Counted from the stretch's first letter, positions 4,070 through 22,163 are shown. The stretch: 24,002 nucleotides of DNA from a virus (IMGVR_UViG_3300031669_000232:1-24002); one strand, 5' to 3'. The notes: generated from the sequence alone by a model not told the origin. Numbers and translations: made by a program.

Positions 4070-4076
4070 AAGTTTT

Positions 4077-4085
4077 TATAAATTT
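4077..4085 (-). promoter_or_regulatory. Degenerate ATTTATA motif before the glycosyltransferase
   Basis: The minus strand reads GAAATTTATAAAAAC, sharing only the ATTTATA core with the exact copies elsewhere. It sits 7 nt before the ATG, closer than the others, so it is the weakest member of the set and may be chance in AT-rich DNA. Confidence 0.25.
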
Positions 4086-4148
4086 CTATAATATAATTAT
4101 CACATATATTACTTATACGGATTTTGGGGGAGAATCTTGAATTTGCAA

Positions 4149-4176
4149 TAAAAAAAGCCAGCAGATTTGCTGGCTT
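4149..4176 (-). terminator. Rho-independent terminator after the 4205-4576 gene
   Basis: On the minus strand a perfect 9-bp stem (AAGCCAGCA with TGCTGGCTT; arms 4168-4176 and 4155-4163) closes a 4-nt loop and runs into a T tract ending near 4149. It closes the enzyme cluster (1706-residue protein to the small basic-tailed protein) ahead of the glycosyltransferase. Confidence 0.88.
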
Positions 4177-4204
4177 AATTACTAAATCATGGAAATTATA
4201 TCAC

Positions 4205-4576
4205 TTACTTGGCACTATCTTTTTCAGTATCAGCGACTTTAGGTCTACCTGCTGATTTTTTCTTAGCAGATACTGTTTTCTTTTCAATGGTAGTTGGTTT
4301 CGGTACAACTACCTTCTTATTAGATGTGTTTGGTACAGGTGCTTTCTTTGGAAGGTCAGCAGGACTGACTTCAACAACAGTTACCAATCCCTTTACTCGA
4401 AGTCTATGAACTGAGAGTGGGAGAGATGTTACTGTAAGAAACACACTATCACCGGGTTTTATTTTCATGGTTTTTTTAACCATATTATCAACGACTGTAA
4501 TATCTAATTCAGAGTTGAATTTAAAATCACGTTTACCTACGAGATTTGTTCTGTTTGTTATTTTATATATGCTCAT
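4205..4576 (-). CDS. Small beta-rich protein with basic Pro/Ala/Lys tail
   Basis: This 123-residue protein has two parts. Residues 1-72 look like a compact beta domain ('YKITNRTNLVGKRDFKFNS', 'KIKPGDSVFLTVTSLPLSVH', 'RLRVKGLVTVVEV'). Residues 73-123 are a low-complexity tail rich in K, P, A, V and T that contains 'KKSAGRPKVAD', whose GRP core surrounded by Lys resembles an AT-hook. It starts 6 nt after the ParB/ART-like gene and is followed by a strong terminator. The tail could bind nucleic acid or anchor the protein to the virion. I do not recognise the family, and the AT-hook reading rests on a 4-residue core. Confidence 0.88.
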   Translation of the reverse strand: MSIYKITNRTNLVGKRDFKFNSELDITVVDNMVKKTMKIKPGDSVFLTVTSLPLSVHRLRVKGLVTVVEVSPADLPKKAPVPNTSNKKVVVPKPTTIEKKTVSAKKKSAGRPKVADTEKDSAK

Positions 4577-4582
4577 AATATT

Positions 4583-5416
4583 TTATTTTAATCCTTGTAC
4601 TATTGTGTCACCGTATTTAATTCCATCATATCCCATTTTCATTGCTTTATTTGCAACTGCTTTATTCATTAAATTAACTGATGGCATATCATATTGCCCA
4701 CTTATTTTTTCAAAATTTACGTTAGGGAACCAGATTCTTGCCAATATTTCAACAGGCACTTGTCCCTCTTTATAACTAACACCCAACTTTCCAACATCAA
4801 GAAGATTATCGAACTCGATTTCATATTTTCCAAAACCATCCTGTGGCTTCAACATGAAAAAATTACCAACAACACTGTTTTCTTTAACAGGTTCTTTTCG
4901 ATATGCAATAAGTTTTTTGTTATTCAACGTTGGTTTTTCTGATTGAACTGCTGAGTTGTCTTCTTCAAGACTCATGAGAAATTCTTCATCACTAAAACCA
5001 GCATCCTTATCGTTATCCACGACATTGATTGCATCCTGTGCCACAACCTCTTCCATTTGTTGCGCTTCTTCGTATTCGTAGATGTCCTGTATTTTATTTA
5101 GATGTCTACAAGCGTCTTTGTCATTCATGTGAAGTTTAACTACCATAATGGGTTGTTGGTCAAGCATTGATTTAACCCATCTATGATGACCATCAAGAAC
5201 TTTCATACTTTCACCCACCCAAATAGGTTTTTCATCCTTCAAATCTACCTTCCCAACTTCATCACTGAAAGTAACGCCTTGGGATGCGGTTAATTCATTC
5301 GGGTCAACTTTAAGTATTTCATATTCGATACCTTCGTCATCAAGTTTTTGTAATACAACATCGAAAGGCATGTGTACCTGTGGTAAAAAATATGGTTTAT
5401 ATCTCATGTCAATCAT
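4583..5416 (-). CDS. ParB-like domain fused to a possible ADP-ribosyltransferase domain
   Basis: In this 277-residue protein, residues about 34-98 fit a ParB/Sulfiredoxin-like domain: 'KVDPNELTASQGV', a strand 'KPIWVGESMKVLDGHHRW' (63-80) with the GHHR box, and 'QPIMVVKLH'. Residues 99-165 are an acidic linker ('YEYEEAQQMEEVVAQD', 'GFSDEEFLMSLEED'). Residues about 168-277 resemble ADP-ribosyltransferases of phage polyvalent proteins: 'LIAYRKEP' with an Arg at the start, 'VVGNFFML' with 'GKYEIEF' after it, and near the end 'AMKMGYDGIKYGDTIV'. The ParB-like call is fairly firm; the ART call is tentative because catalytic residues beyond R173 and the GYDGI element are hard to place. It could modify or bind host or phage factors early after injection. 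GTATTTATA precedes it by 13 nt, overlapping the HAD gene stop. Confidence 0.85.
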   Translation of the reverse strand: MIDMRYKPYFLPQVHMPFDVVLQKLDDEGIEYEILKVDPNELTASQGVTFSDEVGKVDLKDEKPIWVGESMKVLDGHHRWVKSMLDQQPIMVVKLHMNDKDACRHLNKIQDIYEYEEAQQMEEVVAQDAINVVDNDKDAGFSDEEFLMSLEEDNSAVQSEKPTLNNKKLIAYRKEPVKENSVVGNFFMLKPQDGFGKYEIEFDNLLDVGKLGVSYKEGQVPVEILARIWFPNVNFEKISGQYDMPSVNLMNKAVANKAMKMGYDGIKYGDTIVQGLK

Positions 5417-5429
5417 TCCGAGAATTTTA

Positions 5430-5438
5430 TATAAATAC
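5430..5438 (-). promoter_or_regulatory. GTATTTATA motif before the ParB/ART-like gene
   Basis: The minus strand reads ATAGTATTTATATAAAA, exact to the motif. Its first base is the last base of the TAG stop (5440-5438) of the HAD gene and it ends 13 nt before the next ATG. Confidence 0.5.
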
Positions 5439-6010
5439 TATGATTTGAAATTATTAATTTCTTCAAGAATAATACCCAATAACTTGTTGTTGGATTCCAA
5501 TAGACTAATCTTGCCATTATCAACAAAAAACAAATGGTAGTGGATGTCCTGTGGTAAGTCGTCTTGGATTTTGGTATACTCTGCAATTTTGGCTGCGTTC
5601 TTATTCATGAAATCGTCATAAACCAGAATTTCTTTAAGGTCCGGGTTGTATTTCACGATGTTCATAATCACATCACCCTTGGATTCACCACCCCTTTTCA
5701 ATATTATATCATCGACATTAATTTTATTGTTCTTAAGTATTTCCTCGACTTTTGAACGCAACTTTTCCATTCTGGAAGTCAGGATTATCACAGTAGTATC
5801 TGGAATACTCTTTTCTTGCTCCAATTGTTTTTTAATGCTTGGGAATGCTTTGATGTCAAACACTTCGGTATCAAGACTTTCTGGACGACCCCACCATCCA
5901 TCATATGGATAAGGTTGCCCTTTTTTCTGTTCCCATTCCAGCTTTCCACTTTCCTTTTCCGGGGAATCAATCAACGTGCCGTCAAAATCAAATACAGCTA
6001 ATCTTTTCAT
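5438..6010 (-). CDS. HAD phosphatase, Swiss-Army-Knife RNA-repair type
   Basis: I place the start at the ATG at 6010-6008, giving 190 residues, because it forms an ATGA overlap with the stop of the 1706-residue gene and puts the HAD motif I at the N terminus; a frame opening 51 nt earlier adds only atypical sequence. Motif I is 'LAVFDFDGTLIDSP' (D8, D10), motif II 'VIILTSR' (T78), motif III K111 and motif IV 'ILVYDD' (D132, D133). Between I and II, 'GWWGRPESL' (38-46) resembles the GGWWHxPxxL block of the HAD domain found in fungal and phage 'Swiss Army Knife' RNA-repair proteins. The likely reaction is removal of a phosphate from an RNA end or small phosphoester. Coupling to a protein with nucleotidyltransferase and 2H domains strongly supports an RNA-repair job. 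Confidence 0.9.
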   Translation of the reverse strand: MKRLAVFDFDGTLIDSPEKESGKLEWEQKKGQPYPYDGWWGRPESLDTEVFDIKAFPSIKKQLEQEKSIPDTTVIILTSRMEKLRSKVEEILKNNKINVDDIILKRGGESKGDVIMNIVKYNPDLKEILVYDDFMNKNAAKIAEYTKIQDDLPQDIHYHLFFVDNGKISLLESNNKLLGIILEEINNFKS

Positions 6011-9000
6011 TCTTCGCTTACTTTTCCAGTTAATTCCAAAGGAAATCCAAGTGGTTTCCATTCAGTTAATTTATTTGACATGAATGGTTTTCCACCATCG
6101 GCTCTATTAACAGCCAATGTGATATGTGCTTTGGCATTCGTTGAATGATATCCTTCAACACCCACAGCCATTACCTTGTCATCCATTCCATAATCCACAA
6201 CATTTAATATGATTTCAGTATTACCTGACATATCTTCTTTTTCCTTAGTGCCAATATCAAGCGGTCCCATCTTAATTGTCATGTGATGTGCAATGACTTC
6301 CCAGCCTTCTGGAATCATTGGGGTAAATACCTTGAGCAACTTGGCTCTTGACATGTCATCAAGAACAACTGCACTATAACTTACCCTTTTCACATTATCT
6401 TCTTTAAGTAAATCTCTATCGGTTAACGTCCAATACAATTCCTTTTTCAATCTTTCATCTGTTGAAAAATCTTCGTAGTTGTTCTGAAGAAATTCCAATA
6501 CAGATTCTTTCGATGGGTCTGGATATCCGAGTGTTCCACCTTGGGTGTTCCAGACATCGTATTCCTTCATAAAAAATTCTACATCAACCATTTCACCATT
6601 AACATCCCAAACAGGATTTTCGTAGTTGTCCCAACCTTCTTTAATGTCAGTAGGACTTTGTTGTACCAAAGATAGTAATTCTTCCTTATTATTTCTAATT
6701 TTGTCGTCATATACTTTCACCAGCATTTGTTTCAATGCATCACCAATCTGCTTTCCCTGTAATCCAAGTCCCATTAAATCATTGCCGTTAACAGCGAGTT
6801 CCCCAAGTGTTTTTGGGTATTTACCACCGAGTAATTCTTGTGCTGCGACAGTAATTGCTTCAGGAAGAATCTCACTTTGAAGCATATCTTTTGAAGTCAC
6901 ATACACATTATGTGCTGCTGTTCTCGTTTTCATAACATCAAATTCGTTGGCAGCATCATATGCGTGTTGAAGTGCCTTTATTTGTTTTTCGGTCACCAAA
7001 TCACCCTTCAGGTTGTTTTTCACGAACCCAACAGGGTCTCGTAATAAACGTGTTAACAAGAACAGGTATTCACCCATTGTCTTCACACCTTCGAAATCAC
7101 TGCGGTCAATGGTTGATGTTTTCAAGTCATAACCGAAAATCTGCTTAAACAAACCTGTGTTCTGTAACAATTGCGCACCAATTCGTTTATTGCCTTTCTT
7201 AACAATTTTATCTAATTCGATTAAGATTCTCTCAGCAGGAATTTCCTTGATTTTTTGTGCATTGGTCTTAATCATTTCCATTGTTGTTGGTTCAATTACG
7301 AACCCGAAACGACTTGCGAACTGCACAGCACGTAACATTCTCAATGGGTCATCGCTAAACGCCACTGGATTAACAATTCTGATTATCTTGTTCTTAAGGT
7401 CTTCCTGACCACCATATGGGTCAACAATATTACCTTCACTATCTTTACCAATAGCATTGATGGTAAAGTCTCTGCGCTCCAAATCTTTTTCAATTGGTAA
7501 TTCATGGTCAGAGGTAACATCAAAATCTTTGTGCCCACCACCACCAGTTGCTCTTTCGGTTCTGGGAATCGCAATATCAATTTCTTCAGTACTACCTTTA
7601 GGCACGAACTTAATAACACCAAAACTTGCACCAACAGTATTGACCTTTCCATATTTAGAAAGTAGTTGTTCAAGTTCATCCATAGGAATGCCAGTGATAA
7701 GAATATCAAGGTCTTTACTTTCCTTACCCAGAAACTCATCACGCACGGCTCCCCCAACACTATAAATCTTTCCACCGAGACTCTCGATTTCCGATTTAAA
7801 TGGTAGGTCACCCAATTGCATTATGTCGCCTTCTATCATCAATTTACTATAATCTGTTTTTTTTGTCTTTCCGTATGTCGGTAAAAATTCGTTAACAAAA
7901 TCAATTTTGGGATTCCTACGTTGTGCAGCATCCATGAATTTCTGATAAACAGGTGCTGCTTCTGCATGTGTGGGGTAACCCTCGAAACCCCAATCAGGTC
8001 TTAATTCATCAGGATACATTGCCTGATTACTTTCCCCAAGCAATATTTTATTAGTGTCATCTAATCTCGTTACTGTCACATAATCTGTTGGTAACGTATC
8101 ATCCAGAGATGACATATAATCTTTATGAAGTAGTCTGCGACTATTTAAAACATCAATAATTATTTTATGAATATGGTGGCTTCTCTGCTCAACGAAAAAA
8201 TTACCTGCTTTATCAATAACACCCCTAACATTTTTTCCTATATTATCAAGTGTCTGTGGATTCTCTATGATTTGCCAATCAATTTTGGGGTCGTTATAAA
8301 TAACTACATTTTCTTCACTACTCTTTTTTTTTCTGTATTCGTCCTCAAAGTTATCAAATTCCGGTTTAACACCAAACTTCTCAGCATATTTATCTCCAAC
8401 ACCTTCCTCAATATCTTCTTCAGTCAAAGCACTAAACTCTAAGTTATTGATATCACCTTGATTACAGGCATCTGAAGTACCATCGGCTTTACCACCAAGA
8501 CGACATCTTTTTTTAACGGTCACGGCTTGTGAACCGGGAACCCATGCTTTCTTACGGTCTTCTGTCATTTCAAATTCATCATCAGTAGCATCACCAACCA
8601 CATGATTATATTCAAGGTCTTCATCCAGACCATCACCACCATACATTGCTGAATTGGCATCCAGATTATTTTGATTCATAGGAGAACTATCCTCACCATT
8701 ATTATATGCCGGGAAACCATCTTGTCCCAAGTCGCTATCAGTACTGAATTTAGAACTACCGTCTTCATCAACATTAACATCAATTTTTTCAGCATCCGTT
8801 GGTTGCAGAAATCCATTACCAAATCCAACATCAAAGAGACCAATCGCACCGCTTTTCTTGTAGCCAAGATTATATGGATTATAATATTCAATTACGGACT
8901 CCACACCGTATTTTTCAAGTTCTTCGGCAATCCTTAATATGCTGAAAAAGAATTCAGCATCTTCGCTGTTCTTTTTAAAATAACGGTCAACATCATCCTT

Positions 9001-11127
9001 ATTAACGTCATGGTCAAATTGATAACCATAAAGATAGGCTTCAAGAGCTTCTTTATAATCGATATCAAAGAAAGTCTTGAAAGCGTATTCAAGTCTGTCA
9101 TACATACGTTTGAAATAAGCAGCATCTGTTTTCAATTTTTCCAGAATAATTGCATACGTTTTAGGGAAATCGGGGTTTGTCTTAGACTCTACCTTATATA
9201 CTTTGTATGGTTGTGCGATATATTTTAATGGTTTTCCTATGAGTTCAAGATTCTCTGCTGCCTCACTATTGTCACTGGTTATTTTCAAGACCTTATTATC
9301 ACCAATATCATATGCCACACCAAACAATCCATGTCCGAGATAATGTGGTTCAACACCAAGTTTTTTTCCGATTTGAATAGCAACTGCATCAGCACGTTCT
9401 CTGGGATAGTCTTCGTTAATTTGACCTTCAGTAACGTTCTCCGGTAACGTTATTACGTTTTTACCAACATTGGGTTCTGGTTCAAAGTGACCTCCAACAT
9501 CAAAGAATTTTAACGCACCATTACTATACCCAAGATTTGAATTCGAAATATAATCAGTTGACTTGATTCCTAAATCAATTAATTCTTGTCTGATATTCGT
9601 TATTCCAACAATAAGGTCATGTGCTGCTTTTCTATCGGCTTGTGACACATTCGCTTCGGGGTTTTCAGTTAACAAGGTCTTGGCAAATTCAATGCTTTTA
9701 TTATAATCGAATCTATCTTTTTTTCTGATGCCAGATAAAAAATCTTGATAACTATATTCAGGAAATATTTTATTGATATCTGCTTCCATTTTTATAAACT
9801 TATCAAGTGGTTTGTTGATAATGTTTTCTTGAAGAATGGCGAACACCGATTTATTCTTTTCAGTATCAACTACCTTGTAAATATTATATATGTCAGCAAG
9901 ATATTTAGCTCCGTTTCTCAGTACGATAAATGCTGCATCGGCTTCACCCAAATCAGTAGTTAGTTTCAACACAACCCTATTGTTTACTTCAAACGCAACA
10001 CCATTTCCACCATACCCCAGATAACCAACACCACCCAAATCTAATTTAGCAGCAACTCCTTGTGCTAATTCAATCGCATATGATTTATCATCCAATGTAT
10101 CATAATCAACTGGTGGTATTGGAGCGTCTTCATTAATAACATATTCCTCTTTCATCAGAGGGTCTCTATCATAATATCCTTGCTCAATAAGATATTGTTG
10201 GAGTTCAAGAAGATTGTTGAAAAACTGTTTTTTGTTGTCAACACTATTTAACGTTTCTTTAAGGTTGTTAACACATTCGTGGAAACAATCACTTAAGAAT
10301 GGTAATGAACTAACTGGCTTTTTAGGGTACTTACGTTTTTTTGATACGAAATCAACGAACCGTTCATTGATAACACCCGGTCCATCACTGACACTATAGG
10401 GCATGAGACCCCACATACCATGTCTTTCATTAGCACCTACGTTTCCGATGTCAGAAAGTATGTCATCATTCCCATCTTGGAAACCATATAGCTCATACAT
10501 CTGATGTCTTTGTTTTCTCTGTGGACTGTAATGGGTATTAAAGACTTCATCATTCAAGCCGTAATCCGTTAATACAATTGTTGGTTGACCATCACGGAGA
10601 ACCTCACCATATGTGCTGGGTCTTCCCATATCACCGGGAGTCTGACCGTAATTAACAACAAAAGTAATTAAATCGCTTGCAAACTCATTTTCCCAAAAAA
10701 ATTCCTCAACTTCTTTGTCCTGACCAAACATTTTTCTCCCACCTTTATTTTGGTCAACAGTATTTCTTAGGAAATAATATAAATCATTAAGACTTGGAAT
10801 TCCTGTAAGTTCTTTGATTCTTTTTTCATTAACCATTTTAGCCTGTTCTGAAACCAACCAACTATTATCATCGGCACTATCAAAAATTTCAGTAACAACA
10901 TGCAGTGTATCTGCATAATAACCAACACCAGCTTCTGCTTCGTTCTGTGCAATACCTTTGGCATTTTTCGCTAACTTAAAAACCTTTTCACCATCAATAT
11001 CATATACAACTCTACCACTCCCACTACCAATTCTTTGTAGATGTTCGTTGGCGAAATCCATTCTTCCCTTAAATGAACGAATTTGATTGAATCCTTCTAA
11101 GAATTTTGGAAAGTCTTCGTATTTCAT
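6007..11127 (-). CDS. Giant multi-enzyme protein: 3 kinase-like repeats + CCA-adding-type nucleotidyltransferase + 2H phosphoesterase
   Basis: 1706 residues. Three protein-kinase-like modules: (1) about 30-250, loop 'GSGSGRVVY' (34-42), Lys near 51, 'LTDYGL' (186-191); (2) 350-548, loop 'GYGGNGVAF' (371-379), K388, D525 with N531, and 'FFDVG' (D543); (3) 578-768, 'GHGLFGVAY', K615, N753, 'LFDVG' (D766), with Glu where module 2 has catalytic Asp. Residues 775-860 are an acidic linker. A segment with 'CRLGG' and 'CNQGDIN' (875-894) and a domain with 'RGVIDKAGNFFVE' (968-980) are unassigned. The class II nucleotidyltransferase head spans about 1105-1335: 'GGAVRDEFLG' (1125-1134), D1139-x-D1141, 'RRDFTINAI', 'DPYGG', 'DPLRMLRAVQFA'. 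The C terminus (1582-1700) is a 2H phosphoesterase with H1615-M-T1617 and H1668-I-T1670. It ends in an ATGA overlap with the HAD gene. Probable RNA end repair. Confidence 0.95.
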   Translation of the reverse strand: MKYEDFPKFLEGFNQIRSFKGRMDFANEHLQRIGSGSGRVVYDIDGEKVFKLAKNAKGIAQNEAEAGVGYYADTLHVVTEIFDSADDNSWLVSEQAKMVNEKRIKELTGIPSLNDLYYFLRNTVDQNKGGRKMFGQDKEVEEFFWENEFASDLITFVVNYGQTPGDMGRPSTYGEVLRDGQPTIVLTDYGLNDEVFNTHYSPQRKQRHQMYELYGFQDGNDDILSDIGNVGANERHGMWGLMPYSVSDGPGVINERFVDFVSKKRKYPKKPVSSLPFLSDCFHECVNNLKETLNSVDNKKQFFNNLLELQQYLIEQGYYDRDPLMKEEYVINEDAPIPPVDYDTLDDKSYAIELAQGVAAKLDLGGVGYLGYGGNGVAFEVNNRVVLKLTTDLGEADAAFIVLRNGAKYLADIYNIYKVVDTEKNKSVFAILQENIINKPLDKFIKMEADINKIFPEYSYQDFLSGIRKKDRFDYNKSIEFAKTLLTENPEANVSQADRKAAHDLIVGITNIRQELIDLGIKSTDYISNSNLGYSNGALKFFDVGGHFEPEPNVGKNVITLPENVTEGQINEDYPRERADAVAIQIGKKLGVEPHYLGHGLFGVAYDIGDNKVLKITSDNSEAAENLELIGKPLKYIAQPYKVYKVESKTNPDFPKTYAIILEKLKTDAAYFKRMYDRLEYAFKTFFDIDYKEALEAYLYGYQFDHDVNKDDVDRYFKKNSEDAEFFFSILRIAEELEKYGVESVIEYYNPYNLGYKKSGAIGLFDVGFGNGFLQPTDAEKIDVNVDEDGSSKFSTDSDLGQDGFPAYNNGEDSSPMNQNNLDANSAMYGGDGLDEDLEYNHVVGDATDDEFEMTEDRKKAWVPGSQAVTVKKRCRLGGKADGTSDACNQGDINNLEFSALTEEDIEEGVGDKYAEKFGVKPEFDNFEDEYRKKKSSEENVVIYNDPKIDWQIIENPQTLDNIGKNVRGVIDKAGNFFVEQRSHHIHKIIIDVLNSRRLLHKDYMSSLDDTLPTDYVTVTRLDDTNKILLGESNQAMYPDELRPDWGFEGYPTHAEAAPVYQKFMDAAQRRNPKIDFVNEFLPTYGKTKKTDYSKLMIEGDIMQLGDLPFKSEIESLGGKIYSVGGAVRDEFLGKESKDLDILITGIPMDELEQLLSKYGKVNTVGASFGVIKFVPKGSTEEIDIAIPRTERATGGGGHKDFDVTSDHELPIEKDLERRDFTINAIGKDSEGNIVDPYGGQEDLKNKIIRIVNPVAFSDDPLRMLRAVQFASRFGFVIEPTTMEMIKTNAQKIKEIPAERILIELDKIVKKGNKRIGAQLLQNTGLFKQIFGYDLKTSTIDRSDFEGVKTMGEYLFLLTRLLRDPVGFVKNNLKGDLVTEKQIKALQHAYDAANEFDVMKTRTAAHNVYVTSKDMLQSEILPEAITVAAQELLGGKYPKTLGELAVNGNDLMGLGLQGKQIGDALKQMLVKVYDDKIRNNKEELLSLVQQSPTDIKEGWDNYENPVWDVNGEMVDVEFFMKEYDVWNTQGGTLGYPDPSKESVLEFLQNNYEDFSTDERLKKELYWTLTDRDLLKEDNVKRVSYSAVVLDDMSRAKLLKVFTPMIPEGWEVIAHHMTIKMGPLDIGTKEKEDMSGNTEIILNVVDYGMDDKVMAVGVEGYHSTNAKAHITLAVNRADGGKPFMSNKLTEWKPLGFPLELTGKVSEE

Positions 11128-13185: not shown

Positions 13186-13962
13186 TCAATCGTATTTTTT
13201 AAACACGAGCATAATGTATTCAACTAAATTTGGCACAATGTCCAGATAATCCATTTCTTCAACATCGTACCAGCCATAGCCAACATTTTCTTTACCATCA
13301 AGCTCAATATCAGTAGGGTCACCATCATATCTACACGCAAAAATGTGCTCAATACTCTCTGGTCTTCTTTGAATCGTGAATGATTTAACAAATTTTTTAA
13401 TTTCCAAACCAGTTTCTTCCTTGATTTCCCTTTTACAAGCTTCTTCGGGACTTTCACCCTTTTCAATACCACCACCAACAAGTGCCCATTTGTTTGGCAT
13501 CCATTGTTTTTCGTAATCCGAACGTTTTAACAACAAAATCTTATTATCATCATTAATAATTACAGCAACAGCATTTTTATCAAGCTCTTTTTTTGCTTCA
13601 TTTAGTTCCGGTGCATCATAACCAATACTGATTCCCATATCTACATCAGCATCCATATCCTGTCTTCTTTCCTTAGACGTTTCAACAGCATCTCTGTCGG
13701 CTTGCAGTGTCGAATCAACGAAATTTCTCATCATATCACCACCCGCAAGTGCATGTTGTATCCTATCACCAAAATCAGCATTGTAGTTATCAAAGAAATT
13801 CTTCAATCTCTTCATTGCTTGATACGTAATTTGACCCGCTCTAAGGATGTTTTTAGCTCGTTTTACGCCTTCTCCCTGCGGATTGGATACAAGGGTTGCC
13901 TGAATGCTTTTTAAGACCTCTGGGGGAACCTTGTAGGTTTTATTGTAAAGTTCTGAATTCAT
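13186..13962 (-). CDS. Nudix hydrolase with a phage-type N-terminal helical domain
   Basis: In this 258-residue protein, residues about 127-258 are a Nudix domain: strand 'AVAVIINDDNKILLLKRSD', 'WMPNKWALVGGGIEKGES', and a complete Nudix box from G164 through E170, R178-E179, E182-E183 to G185-L186. These bind the metal for hydrolysis of a nucleoside diphosphate linked to another group. Residues 1-120 are a separate helical domain ('YKVPPEVLKSIQATL', 'GVKRAKNILRAGQITYQAMK') with an acidic linker. Phage Nudix enzymes have been linked to mRNA decapping, NAD or (p)ppGpp-type turnover and nucleotide cleaning; substrate cannot be told here. The N-terminal extension is unusual and could target the enzyme to the virion or another protein. 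It overlaps the upstream gene by one base (TAATG), so both are coupled. Confidence 0.94.
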   Translation of the reverse strand: MNSELYNKTYKVPPEVLKSIQATLVSNPQGEGVKRAKNILRAGQITYQAMKRLKNFFDNYNADFGDRIQHALAGGDMMRNFVDSTLQADRDAVETSKERRQDMDADVDMGISIGYDAPELNEAKKELDKNAVAVIINDDNKILLLKRSDYEKQWMPNKWALVGGGIEKGESPEEACKREIKEETGLEIKKFVKSFTIQRRPESIEHIFACRYDGDPTDIELDGKENVGYGWYDVEEMDYLDIVPNLVEYIMLVFKKYD

Positions 13963-14627: not shown

Positions 14628-17600
14628 TCAATATGCACCATCTCCACCATCATCTAAATATTCAGATGCAGCAGATTCTGTTGCGGTTTCAGTATTTTCT
14701 ATGAATTCATCCAACATTTTAAAACCATCTTGCTGTTCTTCAAGCATTGCTAACGTAAATTTCGACACATCAAAATTAAATAGCTTAAGGAATGCCTCGA
14801 AATATTTTTGTCTTTTTTCCATCTGTGCCTTCTGGAATAGTTCAGCATCGGTTTTCTTTGCCATTGTAATTTCAAGTTCTTCTAACTTACGCTCTTCCAC
14901 TTCCTTCTTTCTATCAATTTCAATCTGAATTGGGTGTTTAGGGATGTCAACGTTTTCTCTTACAATTTTCATGAACGTACCGTCATACGAACCAACATTG
15001 AAAGTCCCACCGTCTTTAATCAGAACCAAATCACCAGCACCATAATCATCATTTATTGATTTGATGTACTGCTTACCACTGGCAAGCATTTTTTCATTAA
15101 GGTAATTTAACGCATCGTCATATATCTCGAAATACACTTCATTACCATCACTCATCGTGAACCCATCCCATATTTTTCTTGGGTCATATCCTGTTTTATT
15201 CCAGAATCCGACTTCAAGTTCTTCCAAATTCATACTATCATTAAAATCATCAGAATTATAATTTCCCATTTCCAATTGGTCACTGGTAAACATTTCCTTT
15301 TTCAGTTCACCTTTAACAATTCTTGCCAGAATTTTCTTCTGAATCTCTGGGTCAAACCCAACAAGTATTGATTCCACACGTTTATTAAAGGCATCAAGAT
15401 ACTTTTCGAAATTATATGTACCAGTCATTTCTGGATTTTCCATAAGGTTTTTGGCATTAATTAGCTTGCAACGCAATACAACTTCTTTAGTTTCTGGGTC
15501 TTTCTTTACATCACCATGTGATTTGCGTTCACCAGTATTGACGTAATACACTACACTATCCAATTCCGGTTCTTGTGGCATGTAATTAACCACGAGTTTC
15601 ATTTTATCGGCAGCAGTAAGATTTTCTTCCTTTTTTTGAAACCCAAGATTTTCTTTATGTTCTTCAAACAACTCACATGCAATCTTTTCCCGGTCCTGAA
15701 TCAATAATTCCATATGTGCCTGACTTGCTTTAGGTTTACCATTCTTATCAGTACCACGTTTTTTATATGCACTCAATTTCAACTTGACCTTACTCTTACT
15801 CGCAATCTTTTTTAATGGAATTTGTTGGTAGAAAATATTCTCGGCATAATCATAATACCTTTCAACAAATTCTTTACCCTTACCATGAAGAATTAATTCC
15901 ATTGCTTCATCAATAAAGTCTTCGATATACTCTGGCATTACCTTGGACTTAATTGTGTTACCTGTTAGCTTGATTTTCTCCGTGATTTCCCCGGTCTTCT
16001 TATCCTTTTTGGGTGAGAGCGTAGCATAGTTAATTCTTGAAAGATTAAGACATGATGTTGACTCACCATCGTTATCAACAGCCATAAATGGTGGTGTCAT
16101 TTCTTCCACATTAAACTTTTCGATAAGTGCGTTTATGCCCCTTATGCCCCTATAGTGCCACATATCATTTGGTGACCCACCTTGTAACATCTCTTCCTCA
16201 CCTTCATCACTTACCCGGATATTTGTCGTCACTGGAATCTGGAAGTTAACACCATCAGTTACTGCAAGCAAAGCAACACACCCATATTTACTGAACCACG
16301 AAATTGCGTGACGGAGTTCAATCCTACCACTACAAGTAATTTTGGCAGCACATATATTATCTGACCAGTTAAAGCTGATGTGTGAACCCAGAGCACCAAA
16401 TAACGAGTTGTTCAGAATCTTGATAGGCAACTGCTTGATTTTCGCCATAGCCATTTCTTTGGCAGTTACGTCACCACGCATAACTTTGTGATGAAGTTCA
16501 TGGTCGATTTGCTGAAGCAATGAAATTTCCTCCTTGTTTAAGTCATCACCATTTGCGATTTTCTTGTAAATGTTACGGGTAGTTGTGAGATACAATAACA
16601 TTTTCTTCATAACACCCGTGATGTCAAACATCGGGAAGATGTCATGAGTCAATTGAAGCATGGGATAAAGTGAGGCAAAGTCAATTTTAATGATGCCTGT
16701 CGTATATCCGACCTTATAACATCTTGCCAGACCACCACTAAACTTTTCATATACATCGGGAATCGGAATAGCCAAATCATTCTCGTAACTCCATGCAGTA
16801 AGCAAGAGATTCCAGATACTGGCAGTACCCATTGTACAAACTCGGTGATATGTAGTTGGTACAATCTTGGCAAGCATGAATGACGACTGATTATAGGCTT
16901 CATCCACTTGTTCGGTTTCCCAGAGGTCATCGAGAAGATAGGCTCTTAAGAGTTTCTTGCCACTAATAAAAATCGTATGCTCCTTGGGTTGTGGTACTTC
17001 TCTAAACCAGCCAATAAACCCACGATTTTCTTTAAGATATTTATCCCTTAGAAGTTTATGTTCGTCATCACTCAATTTTCCTTTGTTCGCCTGAAGCTTA
17101 TATAAATTCCTACCAACTTGCTGCCATTCATCAGGTATTTGAGTATATTCGTTCTTCTCGTTCATGAGAAAAATCTTATTCTCAGCATAGAACTTACTGA
17201 TATTACCACCCTCTCCTTCAATATATGTTCTATTGGGTTTGGCAATCTTTTCGAATTGCGCTATGTATTTTAGTTTGGTGTTCTTAATATCGCTATTGAT
17301 TGCCTGAGTTTTCTTTGCTGCGTGATGAATATCAATAACAGAAAATCCCCACATGAACGTGGCAGTATATTTTTCAGCAGTATTACCGTACTTCACAGAA
17401 GTATTGGGTTTTCTAAACAACTGAATACCGGGTTTCAACGAAGTAGGAACTCCTTCCAGACTTAATTTAAGCACTTTTACTCGACCCATTATAAAATCAA
17501 AGTCGAAATCCTCTGAATTATAACCTGAAATAATTGCGGGTTTGATATAATTGATTAGATTAAAGTAATCCAGAATTAACTTCTTTTCAGCTTCATCATC

Positions 17601-18269
17601 ATTGAGTTTCTCGACTTCCAATATGGTTTCAAATCCCCGGTTATCTCTAACACCAATAGCAAACAATCGATGTATTTGATATCTAAGACCCTCTGTTTCA
17701 CAGTCAAACGTAAGTTTATGAACATCAGAATATTCTTCGAACCCCTTATAAAGTCGGCATTGATTCACAATGAAGAATTGTTCTTGAAGACTTGGATTGA
17801 AAAATAATTCACGATTTGGGTAAATATATCTGTCTTTGTCATCCTTTATGAAGTTGCCATCAATATCTCTGGCTTTTTCAAATGGGTTAATTCCACCATC
17901 ACTGAAATAATTAATGAGGTCGTTCTGGGATTTACTGCTTGAATATTTATAACAATAGCCATCAACAAGTCTTTTTTGATTACCAGTTTTTAATTTCTTA
18001 ACCTTGATACCATACTTCATACGTTTACTATGAATCATGTCCTCGGTTTTGCCGTGATAAAGCACGTACTTGGTGTTCGTCAAGTCTTTCATATACATGA
18101 ATGGCTCGTAAGCTACTTTGACAATTTTCGATGGTTCGCCCGGTGGGTGAATGATGCATTCCGCAACATTGGTTCTGGGGTCAGTTTCTACGTTAACCAA
18201 ATACTTTAGGTCGTTATTATATCCTTCAAGGAAACCCTTGATTTCACTTAAGACGTTTAATTTATCCAT
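14628..18269 (-). CDS. Family B DNA polymerase, T4 gp43-like
   Basis: This 1213-residue replicative polymerase has a proofreading exonuclease. Exo I is 'LTFDCETEGL' (D189, E191), Exo II 'ISGYNSEDFDFDFIMGR' (247-263). Polymerase motif A is 'IIKIDFASLYPML' (D530, S533-L-Y-P), motif B 'KILNNSLFGALG' (K617, N621, S622, G625), and motif C 'ALLAVTDGVNF' (D672). Motif C is unusual: the common DTDS is V-T-D-G, so the first Asp is Val while the catalytic second Asp remains. The protein is about 300 residues longer than T4 gp43 (898), with much of the extra length after the palm/thumb, from about 880 on, including 'AGDLVLIKDGGTFNVGSYDG' (1077-1096) and a helical C terminus that may carry clamp contacts. 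The ATG is 4 nt after the QueC-like stop, so it is the last gene of the helicase-QueC-polymerase unit. Confidence 0.98.
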   Translation of the reverse strand: MDKLNVLSEIKGFLEGYNNDLKYLVNVETDPRTNVAECIIHPPGEPSKIVKVAYEPFMYMKDLTNTKYVLYHGKTEDMIHSKRMKYGIKVKKLKTGNQKRLVDGYCYKYSSSKSQNDLINYFSDGGINPFEKARDIDGNFIKDDKDRYIYPNRELFFNPSLQEQFFIVNQCRLYKGFEEYSDVHKLTFDCETEGLRYQIHRLFAIGVRDNRGFETILEVEKLNDDEAEKKLILDYFNLINYIKPAIISGYNSEDFDFDFIMGRVKVLKLSLEGVPTSLKPGIQLFRKPNTSVKYGNTAEKYTATFMWGFSVIDIHHAAKKTQAINSDIKNTKLKYIAQFEKIAKPNRTYIEGEGGNISKFYAENKIFLMNEKNEYTQIPDEWQQVGRNLYKLQANKGKLSDDEHKLLRDKYLKENRGFIGWFREVPQPKEHTIFISGKKLLRAYLLDDLWETEQVDEAYNQSSFMLAKIVPTTYHRVCTMGTASIWNLLLTAWSYENDLAIPIPDVYEKFSGGLARCYKVGYTTGIIKIDFASLYPMLQLTHDIFPMFDITGVMKKMLLYLTTTRNIYKKIANGDDLNKEEISLLQQIDHELHHKVMRGDVTAKEMAMAKIKQLPIKILNNSLFGALGSHISFNWSDNICAAKITCSGRIELRHAISWFSKYGCVALLAVTDGVNFQIPVTTNIRVSDEGEEEMLQGGSPNDMWHYRGIRGINALIEKFNVEEMTPPFMAVDNDGESTSCLNLSRINYATLSPKKDKKTGEITEKIKLTGNTIKSKVMPEYIEDFIDEAMELILHGKGKEFVERYYDYAENIFYQQIPLKKIASKSKVKLKLSAYKKRGTDKNGKPKASQAHMELLIQDREKIACELFEEHKENLGFQKKEENLTAADKMKLVVNYMPQEPELDSVVYYVNTGERKSHGDVKKDPETKEVVLRCKLINAKNLMENPEMTGTYNFEKYLDAFNKRVESILVGFDPEIQKKILARIVKGELKKEMFTSDQLEMGNYNSDDFNDSMNLEELEVGFWNKTGYDPRKIWDGFTMSDGNEVYFEIYDDALNYLNEKMLASGKQYIKSINDDYGAGDLVLIKDGGTFNVGSYDGTFMKIVRENVDIPKHPIQIEIDRKKEVEERKLEELEITMAKKTDAELFQKAQMEKRQKYFEAFLKLFNFDVSKFTLAMLEEQQDGFKMLDEFIENTETATESAASEYLDDGGDGAY

Positions 18270-18273
18270 TCTT

Positions 18274-19152
18274 TTAATTTAATTCAGGTACTTCACATTC
18301 TTCAATACACTCCGCTTTTCCCTGAAGGTCAATACTATCCGTTTCAATCCTATCAAATTCAATTGTCAATTGGTGTGGTTCCGGTACACATTTCACACTT
18401 TCCCATGCATCAACTTCGTTCCCCTTTTCATCAATTATTTTATAACCTTCTCCACTTAATTTACGAATTCGTTTCTTCGTTAACTCTTTTTTATATATTT
18501 CAGGAAACTCCCTATAATAATAATCACTTGCAATTATTGTTCTGCAAGGCGTGCATTCACAACATGGTTCGTATTTCACGAGTTCTGCGTCTTCAGACCC
18601 AATAATTCTGGCATTTTCACAACTAAATATCAACTCAAAATATTCATCTGGTAACACTTTCGCCATATCATGCTTTCTTTCCTTGAAAAGCGGAAATGTC
18701 AAAGGTATTAATTTCTCCGACATTAATTGATAGGTTTTATAAATCTTCTGAATATCTTGAAGATATGCAATAGCGTCATCATTTCCAACATATCCAATTT
18801 GTATTTCATCAACTTCAAGACCCTGACAATATAATACACCAAGAATCCAAATCGGTACTTGTTTAAAATATAGACTTTCTTCATGGGCACAAACATCTAC
18901 AGTCAACACGAATTCAATATCCTTTAAGGGACATTCAGAATATGGTTTATCGGTATTAAACTGCTTGGCGAATTTCTTATGTAACAAACTAATTCGATTC
19001 TTTTCCAAAACAGTTTTTACCTTATTATTACCAATCTCAATATATATTGGCACAACAGTGTTACCATCACTGAGATTCTTCCAGACCAAATAAGTGGAAT
19101 CCAGTCCACCCGAAAACAAAACACCAACCCTTTTATTCTTTAGTTTTCCCAT
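18274..19152 (-). CDS. queC: QueC-like PP-loop enzyme (7-cyano-7-deazaguanine synthase type)
   Basis: This 292-residue protein begins with an N-type ATP pyrophosphatase loop, 'VGVLFSGGLDSTYL' (9-22). Near the C-terminal half it has the cysteine set of QueC: C178 in 'IFSCENARI' and 'CCECTPCR' (C197, C200, C203 with C-x2-C-x2-C spacing), the zinc site of the bacterial enzyme. QueC converts 7-carboxy-7-deazaguanine to preQ0 with ATP and ammonia; phages use this pathway to make 7-deazaguanines in DNA or tRNA. Residues 40-110 are not a close match to cellular QueC, so another adenylating PP-loop enzyme is possible. It has about 60 extra C-terminal residues. It overlaps the helicase gene by 20 nt and ends 4 nt before the polymerase, so it belongs to the replication unit, which favours a DNA-modification role. 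Confidence 0.88.
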   Translation of the reverse strand: MGKLKNKRVGVLFSGGLDSTYLVWKNLSDGNTVVPIYIEIGNNKVKTVLEKNRISLLHKKFAKQFNTDKPYSECPLKDIEFVLTVDVCAHEESLYFKQVPIWILGVLYCQGLEVDEIQIGYVGNDDAIAYLQDIQKIYKTYQLMSEKLIPLTFPLFKERKHDMAKVLPDEYFELIFSCENARIIGSEDAELVKYEPCCECTPCRTIIASDYYYREFPEIYKKELTKKRIRKLSGEGYKIIDEKGNEVDAWESVKCVPEPHQLTIEFDRIETDSIDLQGKAECIEECEVPELN

Positions 19153-22111
19153 GCTTTTCTTTTATTTTGTTAACAACCTCACTAAACACAGATTCCGCAA
19201 CAACAGACTCATAATCTTCGTTATCCATTACTTTCACGATTTCTTTTCGCTTGCCTTCGATTGCCGAAAACACATAATCATCAATGGTGTCTCTGAACAC
19301 CAGTGGATAGATATTCACAGCAGCTTTCTGTCCGATTCTATGTAGTCTATCAGCCACTTGGTCATATTCACCTACCGAATATGGAAGTGTGATGATAAAC
19401 AATTTACTTGCAGCAGTAAGAGTCAAGCCATAATTACTGGTTTGAATTGTGCCAAGGAAAACCTTCAGGTCACTATCCGGGTCTTGAAATCTTTTTATTA
19501 TCCCGGCACGTACTTCCAAGTCTTTTTCGTCACCAGTGTGTAATTCAGCAACATCTCCCAGAGCCTCTTTCAATTCATAAAGACTTTCCTTGTAATAGTC
19601 AACAATAACAACCTTTTCCCCGGTTTCCAAAATATTTTCAATTAATTCAAGTAAAGGCTTGACCTTTAGATGTGCCGTATATTGTCTCAGGCGAATCATT
19701 ATTGTCAGGTGATTACCTGAAGGACGTTCAACGAACTCATTTGCCACATTGTTTTCAATATCATCATAAGTGCTGTATTCTGCATCATCCATTTCCATCA
19801 TGACCTTCTGATATGTTTTATCAGGTAGGTCTTTAAGCGCATCAATTTTTCGTTTTCTGTGAGTATATGGTGCTGTTTTATGGAACAGTTCTTCAAGTCG
19901 CTGTTCTGCACTGTTTGTCCTATATCCCCACCCACTCTCATGGTCATAATCCATACCACAATAATATTTTTGGAAATATGTTTTCGTTGCGAAGTCCAGA
20001 GGCGATACCTGATTTAATACAGTATATAATTCATGTGCCCGGTTTGGTGCGGGAGTTCCTGATAAGAAAATCTTACTGATTTTATCAGCTTTAAATATAT
20101 TCTTATTGAACGTCCTCTTGAAATTCTTATATGTATTGGACTTGGTGTTTTTAAGTTTTTGACAATTACTCACCAATATACCGTTCGCAAAAAAATTATG
20201 ATTATTTGCAATTTCTAAATCATATGTTTTTTTATTTTGGCAACCACCATTTCCAAATTTTCGTCTATCTCCCAATTCCAAAACCTCAACACTTTCCACC
20301 CCAATAATTTCAAGATTTCTGTCTTTCTCTTGTCCAGAAATTTCCATTTCTTTGTTTTGTGTGTTTTCCCATCTACCTCTATTGCCAATTTTATGCTCAG
20401 TATCCCTATATCCACTTTGTAATGTGTTGGTGGTGAAATTATGTTTGCATTCATTTCTTTGAGCGGTAATAACACAGGAATTGCTAATTCCATTTTCATT
20501 TGAGTTATTCCCGATAATTCCGTGAATAATTTTATTTGTTGCGTTGTTAATTGTCCATTTCCACCTCTTGAAAGAAAAGTATATTTCCCTCTTTTCTTCT
20601 TCATTTTCTCTACGTTCATTTGTTTGAACATTGGATTGTTCGATTTCATACGTTCTGATAACCGGGTTTTCAATTCCGGTTTGTTTTTGTAACTCTTTAT
20701 TAACGCCTCCGAAATTTTTTTCCCAGCTTCCTTGGAATATATCTTCTCCCTTATTTCCGTTTTCGACATCCTCCATTTCGCAGAGCAATTCGTTGAGCAG
20801 AACCTTTGTGTTTTTCTTTCCTGAACAGAGAATTCTTTTTTGCAATATTGACAATTCCTCGTCACAATCGGTGATATGTTCCCATTCAATCTTCTTGTTT
20901 CGACTGCTTTTAATACTGTTTCTTTTGATGTAAAAATTGCTGAACACTTTTTCGAACATAGTTTTTGTGAACTTCTTTTTTGCTTGAATTTCATCCCACA
21001 TTGTAGACATATCAAAATCTTCGTTGGTATTTTCTTTCTTCTCGTATTTATATAGTCTTTCCCCATAATTAAAATCTTTAATTGGTATATATTTGTCTCT
21101 ATCAACAGAATAAAATTTATGCTCTGGCGTACATACAATGATTTCACCATTTAATAATTTTACTTTAATAACATCATTATTACCTCTATATAAATACCTA
21201 TTAATTGCATTATATTCAATTTTCTTTAGCTTATGATTATAGGATAGTACCTTAACATCAAGTTTATTTTCAATAATATCACCAATTTTAAGCTCACCGA
21301 TATTTGTTTGGATTAACGTATCATAAGGAAAACATTCATCACATATTATGGAATCGATTCTACCAATATCGAGCTTCTGCCACTTAGGGTCGAACCTCTT
21401 ACTTTTTATATTTGGATTAAAGAAATCGTAATTAACAATAACGTATTTCGCATCTTCGATGGTACAGGTGTTTCTACGCCAATTTACAATATATGCATTA
21501 CTATTTGTAAATTTTTTTACTTCCTCATAAAAATTGAACTTCAGGGAATTTGGTGTGATAACCACAACCTTTTCGAAACCATTCATTTCGACAAACAAGA
21601 TGGCACTCAGGGTTTTACCCAATCCCATTTCATGAGAAATTAAGGTGCTTCTCGTGACATTCATGAACATCGAAGCCACGATTTGATGTGGATACAGCTT
21701 TACATCACCATCCAGAAGTGCATGCAGTTTATCGCTGTATTGCTCGTAATTCTTTTCCAATTCATTCTTGAACCGGACCCAATTTTCTTTCTTGACATTG
21801 AGTTCTGCAATAAATTTGCGCTTCTCGGCTTCAGCAAGTTCAATTTTTTTGATTTGTTGTACGAATATCTTTCTGCTTTCATCAGACCCGAAATCAAATC
21901 GGATTTTATTGCTGCCCCGGTATCGTCTAATTAAAATGAGTAGTGAGGATGCATGAATTTCCCACGCCCTTTCCAATACCCTCCATTTTCTGGTCTCTTC
22001 AGGAAGTTCTTTTATTCTCTGGATTAACTGGTCGTTAATTGGAAATCTTACATGGTAGGTTAGTGTTCTACGAATCCTTTCACAACTAACTATGAATATT
22101 GGTTCACCCAT
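19133..22111 (-). CDS. SNF2/SMARCAL1-like helicase precursor with in-frame intein
   Basis: This is a 992-residue precursor; removing the intein (260-649) leaves 602 residues. Extein motifs are those of SF2/SNF2 ATPases: Q-type 'LYPHQIVASMFM' (139-150), motif I 'SHEMGLGKTLSA' (159-170), motif II 'IICDE' (255-259) joined after splicing to 'CQKLKN' (650-655) giving DECQKLKN, motif III 'FLSGTPAPN' (682-690), 'KVVIVDYY' (833-840), motif V 'TSNYGLTLTAASKLFII' (891-907) and motif VI 'DQVADRLHRIGQ' (917-928). The first 90 residues resemble the HARP-type region of annealing helicases. The probable role is fork remodelling or recombination-dependent replication, like T4 UvsW. It is the first gene after the Bacteroidetes-type promoter and overlaps the QueC-like gene by 20 nt. 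Confidence 0.95.
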   Translation of the reverse strand: MGEPIFIVSCERIRRTLTYHVRFPINDQLIQRIKELPEETRKWRVLERAWEIHASSLLILIRRYRGSNKIRFDFGSDESRKIFVQQIKKIELAEAEKRKFIAELNVKKENWVRFKNELEKNYEQYSDKLHALLDGDVKLYPHQIVASMFMNVTRSTLISHEMGLGKTLSAILFVEMNGFEKVVVITPNSLKFNFYEEVKKFTNSNAYIVNWRRNTCTIEDAKYVIVNYDFFNPNIKSKRFDPKWQKLDIGRIDSIICDECFPYDTLIQTNIGELKIGDIIENKLDVKVLSYNHKLKKIEYNAINRYLYRGNNDVIKVKLLNGEIIVCTPEHKFYSVDRDKYIPIKDFNYGERLYKYEKKENTNEDFDMSTMWDEIQAKKKFTKTMFEKVFSNFYIKRNSIKSSRNKKIEWEHITDCDEELSILQKRILCSGKKNTKVLLNELLCEMEDVENGNKGEDIFQGSWEKNFGGVNKELQKQTGIENPVIRTYEIEQSNVQTNERRENEEEKREIYFSFKRWKWTINNATNKIIHGIIGNNSNENGISNSCVITAQRNECKHNFTTNTLQSGYRDTEHKIGNRGRWENTQNKEMEISGQEKDRNLEIIGVESVEVLELGDRRKFGNGGCQNKKTYDLEIANNHNFFANGILVSNCQKLKNTKSNTYKNFKRTFNKNIFKADKISKIFLSGTPAPNRAHELYTVLNQVSPLDFATKTYFQKYYCGMDYDHESGWGYRTNSAEQRLEELFHKTAPYTHRKRKIDALKDLPDKTYQKVMMEMDDAEYSTYDDIENNVANEFVERPSGNHLTIMIRLRQYTAHLKVKPLLELIENILETGEKVVIVDYYKESLYELKEALGDVAELHTGDEKDLEVRAGIIKRFQDPDSDLKVFLGTIQTSNYGLTLTAASKLFIITLPYSVGEYDQVADRLHRIGQKAAVNIYPLVFRDTIDDYVFSAIEGKRKEIVKVMDNEDYESVVAESVFSEVVNKIKEKHGKTKE
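20165..21334 (-). mobile_element. Intein in the DEAH-type box of the helicase
   Basis: The intein is residues 260-649 of the precursor (390 residues). It starts with Cys at 'CFPYDTLIQTNIGELKIGD' (block A), has block B 'IIVCTPEHKFYS' with T328 and H331, and ends with block F/G 'TYDLEIANNHNFFANGILVSN', terminal N649, followed by Cys as the first C-extein residue. The penultimate residue is Ser, where His is usual. Splicing regions are about 260-357 and 600-649. The 242 residues between are polar and low-complexity in this frame and show no LAGLIDADG or HNH endonuclease; the same DNA encodes a different endonuclease in the +1 frame. The insertion splits catalytic motif II between DE and C, so splicing is required for activity. 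Confidence 0.95.
20215..21066 (-). CDS. Homing endonuclease nested out of frame inside the intein (zinc-finger + Vsr/DUF559-like nuclease)
   Basis: The frame is open from an ATG at 21150, but I prefer the ATG at 21066 (283 residues), which leaves the intein block B region single-coded and starts just before the first finger. In numbering from 21150: two Cys4 fingers, C48-x2-C51 with C65-x3-C69, and C100-x2-C103 with C118-x3-C122; a NUMOD3-like segment with 'SNNPMF' (170-175); and a C-terminal PD-(D/E)XK nuclease, 'YKVDIGILSIKLAIEVDG' (244-261) with D247, E258, D260, H264 and D273, then 'LGWKVLRFWNWEI' (283-295). This matches the Vsr-like class of phage homing endonucleases. It reads +1 relative to the intein frame on the same strand. 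Expression would need internal initiation; the leader is A/T-rich with no Shine-Dalgarno. It probably cleaves intein-less helicase alleles. Confidence 0.88.
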   Translation of the reverse strand: MGKDYINTRRKKIPTKILICLQCGMKFKQKRSSQKLCSKKCSAIFTSKETVLKAVETRRLNGNISPIVTRNCQYCKKEFSVQERKTQRFCSTNCSAKWRMSKTEIREKIYSKEAGKKISEALIKSYKNKPELKTRLSERMKSNNPMFKQMNVEKMKKKRGKYTFLSRGGNGQLTTQQIKLFTELSGITQMKMELAIPVLLPLKEMNANIISPPTHYKVDIGILSIKLAIEVDGKTHKTKKWKFLDKRKTEILKLLGWKVLRFWNWEIDENLEMVVAKIKKHMI

Positions 22112-22125
22112 TGTGTATTATACAA

Positions 22126-22163
22126 TTTCGAACAAAGATACGAAAATCTGGGTTTAATGCAAG
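22126..22163 (-). promoter_or_regulatory. Bacteroidetes-type promoter for the helicase unit
   Basis: On the minus strand TTG (22162-22160) is followed after 19 nt by TATCTTTG (22140-22133), matching the Bacteroidetes -33 TTG and -7 TAnnTTTG elements. Transcription should begin near 22126, giving a leader of about 15 nt before the helicase ATG. It indicates use of the host's primary sigma factor and an early or middle expression time. Confidence 0.75.

Follow-up and report, generated by a model that had tools for sequence, protein, structure and literature searches.

A putative homing-endonuclease gene nested in the +1 frame of a viral helicase intein

The window analysed here, taken over its full length (IMGVR_UViG_3300031669_000232:1-24002; a virus, 24,002 nt), contains a helicase gene with an in-frame intein, and much of the DNA that encodes this intein is also open in the +1 frame. 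The locus therefore raises the question of whether the second frame is a gene and, if it is, how a nuclease could be encoded inside an intein without being part of the intein polypeptide. An initial annotation, prepared from the sequence alone, had taken the nested frame for a separate, out-of-frame homing-endonuclease gene, and this assignment was borne out by homologues and by purifying selection on the nested frame. The best explanation of the locus, in which we have high confidence, is a mobile intein with a homing endonuclease that is encoded separately, by a gene overlapping it in the +1 frame. The sequence shows two open frames, selection on the nested one, intact intein halves, start signals, recent transfer and empty insertion sites, from which translation, cutting, splicing and homing are inferred.

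The intein and the gene inside it

The host gene and its parts were delimited as follows (pLDDT: predicted local distance difference test).

19133-22111 (-): helicase precursor open reading frame (ORF), SNF2/SF2 type, phrog_62, with in-frame intein; 992 codons; SNF2-rel_dom 1e-19, Helicase_C 8e-8, phrog_62 1e-74
21335-22111 (-): N-extein, C-terminal ...IICDE; tblastn with the spliced helicase, which found uninterrupted relatives
20165-21334 (-): intein, 390 residues, C1...N390, +1 residue Cys; splicing-block profiles and Foldseek against solved inteins
21035-21334 (-): N-terminal splicing half of the intein, residues 1-100; TIGR01445, pLDDT about 88
20321-21034 (-): host-frame filler, intein residues 101-338, the region of the nested gene; predicted disorder
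20165-20314 (-): C-terminal splicing half of the intein, residues 341-390; TIGR01443, high pLDDT except at residues 359-365
19133-20164 (-): C-extein, N-terminal CQKLKN...; sequence and intein-less relatives

One uninterrupted ORF crosses the whole intein, as the initial annotation had stated, and the insertion point is DE|C within the DECQ (Walker B) box (IICDE|C...N|CQKLKN). In the host frame, the N-terminal splicing blocks with Cys1 (start CFPYDT) were matched by NCBIfam intein_Nterm (TIGR01445, 4.8e-12) and the C-terminal block, which ends in LVSN followed by C, by intein_Cterm (TIGR01443, 2.6e-7); the penultimate intein residue is Ser rather than His. An AlphaFold model of the host-frame intein consists of two well-folded splicing halves separated by residues 101-338, for which pLDDT is below 50 throughout, in agreement with the earlier view that the middle of the intein is filler in this frame. 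Foldseek confirmed the Hint fold of the model, with solved inteins including 1zd7 and Npu DnaE as top matches (best E 8e-7). The element is accordingly classified, from sequence and model, as a class 1 intein with a Hint fold that is predicted to undergo protein splicing.

The nested frame was confirmed as an ORF of 311 codons (20215-21150, minus strand) in the +1 frame of the helicase, as annotated initially; the remaining third frame is closed by 37 stops. Its features are given below.

20215-21066 (-): nested nuclease gene, +1 frame, ATG at 21066, 283 residues; the frame is open from an ATG at 21150
20944-21009 (-): Cys4 finger 1 of the nested protein, C20, C23, C37, C41; read off the translation; only part of the family has this finger
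20785-20853 (-): Cys4 finger 2, C72, C75, C90, C94; conserved among 55 relatives
20224-20430 (-): DUF559 / EDxHD-type nuclease domain, with D219, E230, D232, H236, D245 and K248 conserved; Pfam, fold and profile matches

Both fingers noted initially are present in the translation as CxxC..CxxxC motifs (residues 20-41 and 72-94). In an alignment of 55 sequences, C72, C90 and C94 of finger 2 were invariant and C75 nearly so, and D219, E230, D232, H236 and D245 of the nuclease domain were likewise invariant. A profile search returned DUF559 (Pfam PF04480) with E 5e-14 (52.5 bits, cut-off 20.6), which supports the nuclease part of the initial domain assignment; NUMOD3, also named there, was absent from the Pfam matches at E<=1, so that this label is unsupported. 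The family does share a conserved SxRMKxNNPM motif. The AlphaFold model of the nested protein reached a pLDDT of 90.5, and its best fold match in the PDB was the catalytic domain of I-Bth0305I (3r3p; Foldseek E 3e-3, probability 1.00), a solved EDxHD homing endonuclease, followed by the DUF559 protein 3hrl. By sequence, the profile of the nested family matched the same two structures (3r3p 4e-5, 3hrl 7e-14). The nested protein is thus modelled as a nuclease with an EDxHD / Vsr-like core fold and predicted activity. The putative catalytic residues were taken from conservation, and their residue-by-residue match to the EDxHD set is provisional.

Selection in two frames and the choice of phase

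An accident of base composition, or of the amino-acid content of the intein, could in principle leave such a frame open, given that the DNA is AT-rich and that many long non-coding ORFs exist by chance. Synonymous codons of the window were therefore permuted in each frame. When those of the nested gene were permuted, a mean of 13.8 and a minimum of 5 host-frame stops were obtained in 20,000 shuffles, against 0 observed; when those of the host frame were permuted, the nested frame stayed open in just 0.00015 of the shuffles. Across 96 distinct nested genes no host-frame stop was found, whereas 1,158 were expected from synonymous permutation and 1,553 from extein codon usage. Free-standing relatives of the nuclease carry 11-39 stops each in the corresponding frame.

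Substitutions per codon were counted at host positions 1/2/3, position 1 being the wobble base of the nested frame. The pooled values were 0.34/0.26/0.53 for the exteins and 0.29/0.22/0.45 for the N-terminal half of the intein, and they changed to 0.41/0.26/0.26 in the nested part. Between the window and its closest relative (locus L009), the nested part showed 113/56/39 substitutions at these positions, and the nested wobble base was the most variable position in 53 of 55 pairs. Independence among these pairs is incomplete, since a few contigs are represented twice. Substitutions are concentrated at the nested wobble base, and the nested nuclease is therefore under purifying selection, while the host frame in this region is constrained mainly against stops. 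This comparison of selection in both frames, proposed with the initial annotation, places the locus among same-strand +1 overlapping gene pairs: both frames are conserved, and the nested one is under purifying selection. Together with homologues in very different phages, the Pfam and fold matches and the high-confidence structure model, the stop depletion and the codon-position signature leave an accidental frame with a negligible probability, and a chance ORF, which had been judged very unlikely from the outset, was rejected on the grounds of conservation, selection, shuffles and homology.

The phase itself was examined by dynamic programming. With the nested gene in +1, each host codon is composed of nested bases (n3,n1,n2), so that a host stop requires a nested codon with T in third place, which can always be exchanged for a synonymous codon with C there. 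All 157 nested proteins could be made stop-free in this phase without a residue change, compared with 4 of 157 in the +2 phase, where a mean of 3.3 stops (7 for the window protein) was unavoidable, mostly at Met followed by codons starting with A. Of the same-strand phases, +1 alone allows any given protein to be kept free of host-frame stops by silent changes, and this property probably accounts for the nesting in +1. The rule is permissive, not absolute: an HNH insertion, ShiLan, has been described in the third frame (PMC11855218).

A second case was found in a terminase intein (L280, host ORF 3437-6103), in which an HNH nuclease with several Cys fingers is nested in +1 at 4148-5036, with 0 host-frame stops against 13.7 expected. 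A relative (L360) has kept the intein frame and carries a stop in the nested frame. The L280 nuclease is unrelated to the family of the window, which suggests that nesting arose at least twice, independently.

How the nested gene would be read

In nearly every nested gene an ATG (rarely GTG or TTG) stands directly upstream of the first finger. An ATG no more than 15 codons upstream of this finger was present in the nested frame in 176 of 206 cases, compared with 81 and 16 for the other two frames. A Shine-Dalgarno sequence of at least 5 nt at the right distance preceded 56 of 156 nested starts (6-10 expected); clear examples with their starts are L066 (aaggaggtattcattATG), L054 (aaggaggaaataaATG) and L105 (aaaggagatatattgATG), and at the nested starts of Vibrio phages the GAGGT is formed by the intein's own 'DEV' codons. 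Since many nested genes have their own Shine-Dalgarno sequence and start, the nested product is likely made by internal initiation. The start proposed initially for the window, at 21066, gained support from the closest relative, L009, in which the ATG and its context are conserved.

Two other routes were weighed. Programmed ribosomal frameshifting would yield the nuclease as a fusion to the N-terminal half of the intein, and both frames are indeed open together between 21150 and 21066 in the window and also in some relatives. In L054, L002, L038 and L004, however, the nested frame opens only 0-4 codons before the ATG, which leaves no overlap in which to slip; in L054 a nested-frame stop lies immediately 5' of the ATG, so that a frameshift fusion is impossible there. 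As Shine-Dalgarno sequences and ATG codons are also strongly enriched at the nested start, we consider frameshifting very improbable. Instead of the helicase mRNA, a transcript from the gene's own promoter within the intein, or a processed one, could serve for expression. This would be in keeping with the existence of free-standing relatives of the nested gene; it is nonetheless unlikely, if less so than frameshifting, because the many starts with Shine-Dalgarno sequences are fit for internal initiation on a long mRNA.

Shortly upstream of the helicase start, a TATCTTTG box is located at 22133-22140 (-). It resembles the -7 box of Bacteroidota (TAnnTTTG), and this resemblance suggests a host from that phylum for the window virus. 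Bacteroidota rely little on Shine-Dalgarno sequences.

Under the favoured reading, in which the homing endonuclease is encoded in the +1 frame of the intein linker and is not fused to the intein, one transcript would be read in two ways. Initiation at the helicase start would give the helicase-intein precursor, the two intein halves of which would fold together and excise themselves, the linker being discarded as a floppy loop. Initiation at the internal ATG, just past the N-terminal splicing half, would give the zinc-finger/EDxHD nuclease, whose end falls shortly before the C-terminal half. The nuclease would cut intein-less helicase genes at DE|C, and repair would copy in the intein together with its hidden gene.

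Distribution, homing and fractured genes

A nucleotide search of phage records with the window gave no match. A protein search of phage records gave 43 relatives, the full-length ones of which occur in phages of Vibrio, Corynebacterium and Pseudomonas, within genes annotated as helicase, coil protein or hypothetical. Eight GenBank phage loci were inspected; in all of them the nested frame is +1 and the intein sits at DE|C as in the window. Of the two genes, these genomes have only the host gene annotated. About 110 further full-length members were obtained by scanning IMG/VR and GTDB (E-values of these contig scans are relative to the candidate stretches). In 109 sequences, including the window, the host frame spans the nested ORF, always with the nested gene in +1 and nearly always with both intein halves; a search with the splicing halves alone gave 104 more nested cases, again all +1, the two sets sharing some contigs. 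The whole collection came to 156 distinct nested proteins with a length of 170 residues or more; many of the loci are metagenomic contigs, some of them present twice. Among the products of the host genes are SF2/SNF2 helicases, AAA+ clamp-loader-like and terminase-like proteins, as assigned from sequence and motifs rather than by profile searches, and nearly all insertions lie within or beside the Walker B/DEAD motif. Judged from these sequences, the nested gene of a contiguous intein is invariably +1, and the arrangement appears widespread and ancient. The initial annotation had seen in it a possible intermediate or alternative route, by which a nuclease gene entered a mini-intein and left its frame unbroken; a nuclease gene within a contiguous intein of unbroken frame was confirmed, and the arrangement proved to be no one-off.

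Several candidates were discarded in the course of these searches. An in-frame nuclease was rejected, as the nested frames found end inside the intein and none continues into the exteins. The host +2 frame never spans a nested gene of the window's family, and apparent +2 spans were short open stretches across bare DUF559-domain or finger-only matches. Plasmid matches consisted of the bare DUF559 domain, and L010 and L011 share only a zinc finger and end in an HNH domain. An intron was dismissed, with no Rfam match anywhere in the window.

Further in-frame inteins were noticed in similar helicases (L204, L206, L055, L177 and L191), at the Walker A GLGK|S region and at motif VI (DR|C), with two inteins in some genes. 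In L023, L024, L026 and L032, helicases with nested inteins form part of single open frames of more than 2,400-2,900 codons, cut by the ends of the loci.

Evidence for mobility was sought in divergence at third positions, which for the intein and the extein, respectively, was 0.14 and 0.50 between L022 and L220 (p 2e-11), 0.02 and 0.29 between L353 and L358, and 0.32 and 0.56 between the window and L009 (p 3e-6). As homing would predict, many pairs differ far less in the intein and its nested gene than in the surrounding helicase. The insertion site is intact and empty (CDE|CQKLKN or CDE|SQKLKN) in the majority of the window helicase's close relatives. Mini-inteins occur at the same site in L282, L299, L309 and L327, and free-standing copies of the nuclease in L067, L081, L087, L090 and L094. 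On a Spirochaetaceae contig (L110), a free-standing member of the nuclease family (3971-4585) overlaps the start region of an intein-less helicase (4546-6039; site VDE|SHH). With the full elements and the decayed copies described next, these forms represent the successive states expected of a homing cycle.

A broken nested frame within an intact intein had been named initially as evidence that would count against a nested gene. Such copies exist: the nested gene has been shortened by internal deletion with the intein frame kept in L206, L216, L277 and L302, and the HNH-type L360 is a further case. They look like the degeneration stage of a homing cycle and not like a refutation. The same observations bear on whether the nested protein is a former homing nuclease that has taken on another task, such as an attack on competitor phages or regulation of the helicase. 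DUF559 nucleases do occur outside mobile elements, but the intein passes from one diverged helicase to another with the nested gene inside it, unoccupied sites are frequent, and where the nested gene decays by internal deletion the intein is what remains, which is the pattern of a homing cycle; a change of function is accordingly considered a slim prospect.

Some observations weigh against a mobile intein with a separate nuclease gene. The nested start of the window lacks a Shine-Dalgarno sequence, and L042 (3704-4477) has no ATG, GTG or TTG before the first finger, only codons of the ATT/ATA type. The first helix of the window's nuclease domain has no conserved glutamate of the kind to which the EDxHD name refers. 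To these are added the redundancy among the 55 pairs mentioned above and the circumstance that the empty DE|C site is a presumed nuclease target, deduced from distribution.

None of the components is new in itself, as class 1 inteins, EDxHD/DUF559 homing nucleases, fractured genes and out-of-frame HNH insertions all have precedents. Dassa and colleagues reportedly described, in 2009, fractured genes in which a split intein is accompanied by a free-standing, Vsr-like (EDxHD) homing endonuclease. The window shares with them the kind of nuclease between intein halves, the location in phage replication or packaging genes and the layout of zinc finger plus nuclease; it differs in that its intein is contiguous and the precursor frame crosses the nuclease gene, the two genes overlapping completely instead of lying end to end. 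The window itself is not a fractured gene, its precursor being encoded in one ORF, not two.

The link to fractured genes drawn initially was substantiated by L255/256/258, where an SNF2 helicase is split into an N part (3287-4321) and a C part (5112-6215), and a nuclease of the window's family (4361-5164) lies between the split-intein halves; L232/233 is a weaker case of the same kind. When 134 nucleases were placed in a quick, unrooted tree, the nested forms were interspersed with free-standing, fractured and broken ones. L255 is on a long branch, so that the direction of change between nested and fractured forms is unproven. In a clamp-loader gene (L085), a single in-frame TAG (4249-4251) separates the intein halves while the nested gene is intact. 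Recoding of this stop was rejected because TAG terminates another gene there; either it is a real break, possibly a first step on the way to fracture, or the sequence is in error here. Split inteins in further fractured genes (L227, L278, L253, L257, L279 and L348; terminase-like, ribonucleotide-reductase-like and helicase genes) have HNH or unrecognised ORFs between their halves.

In mycobacteriophage methylases, the ShiLan domain and the Pacc40 insertion contain out-of-frame HNH endonucleases, lack a splicing domain and are thought to remain in the methylase (PMC11855218). As in these, the homing-endonuclease gene of the window lies out of frame in an insertion that leaves the host frame open; unlike the HNH of ShiLan, it is of the DUF559 type, in +1 and flanked by splicing halves. 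Canonical large inteins with an in-frame LAGLIDADG or HNH nuclease likewise hold the nuclease between N- and C-terminal splicing halves and are mobile by homing, but the nuclease of the window is a second gene in +1 and no part of the intein polypeptide, whose own linker is filler. Where a group I intron carries a homing-endonuclease ORF, it too is a self-removing element with a separate ORF inside, whereas the element of the window would be removed at the protein level. The literature searched contained no contiguous splicing intein that holds a complete, overlapping nuclease gene, although a 2025 preprint on actinobacteriophage inteins may describe something similar.

Taken jointly, the data make it somewhat more probable than its opposite that out-of-frame nesting is a major and ancient mode of intein mobility in phages, in which one intein family has kept a nuclease nested in +1 in ATPase genes of several classes and over many bacterial phyla by the silent-change rule, and in which split inteins arise when the host frame breaks. 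The textbook mobile intein, one polypeptide with a nuclease domain, would here become two overlapping genes, in an arrangement that is common yet unannotated. Fractured genes and natural split inteins gain a testable origin, and the preference for +1 a general rule. The loci also make up an extensive, clean set of overlapping gene pairs, one gene lying wholly inside the other, under two very different selective regimes, and new splicing domains as well as site-specific nucleases can be drawn from them.

The neighbourhood of the helicase in the window comprises the following genes.

18274-19152 (-): QueC-like protein, beside the helicase
14628-18269 (-): family B DNA polymerase
13186-13962 (-): NUDIX hydrolase

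The second half of an unusually large fusion protein of 1,706 residues, encoded at 6007-11127 (-), contains a tRNA nucleotidyltransferase / poly(A) polymerase head domain.

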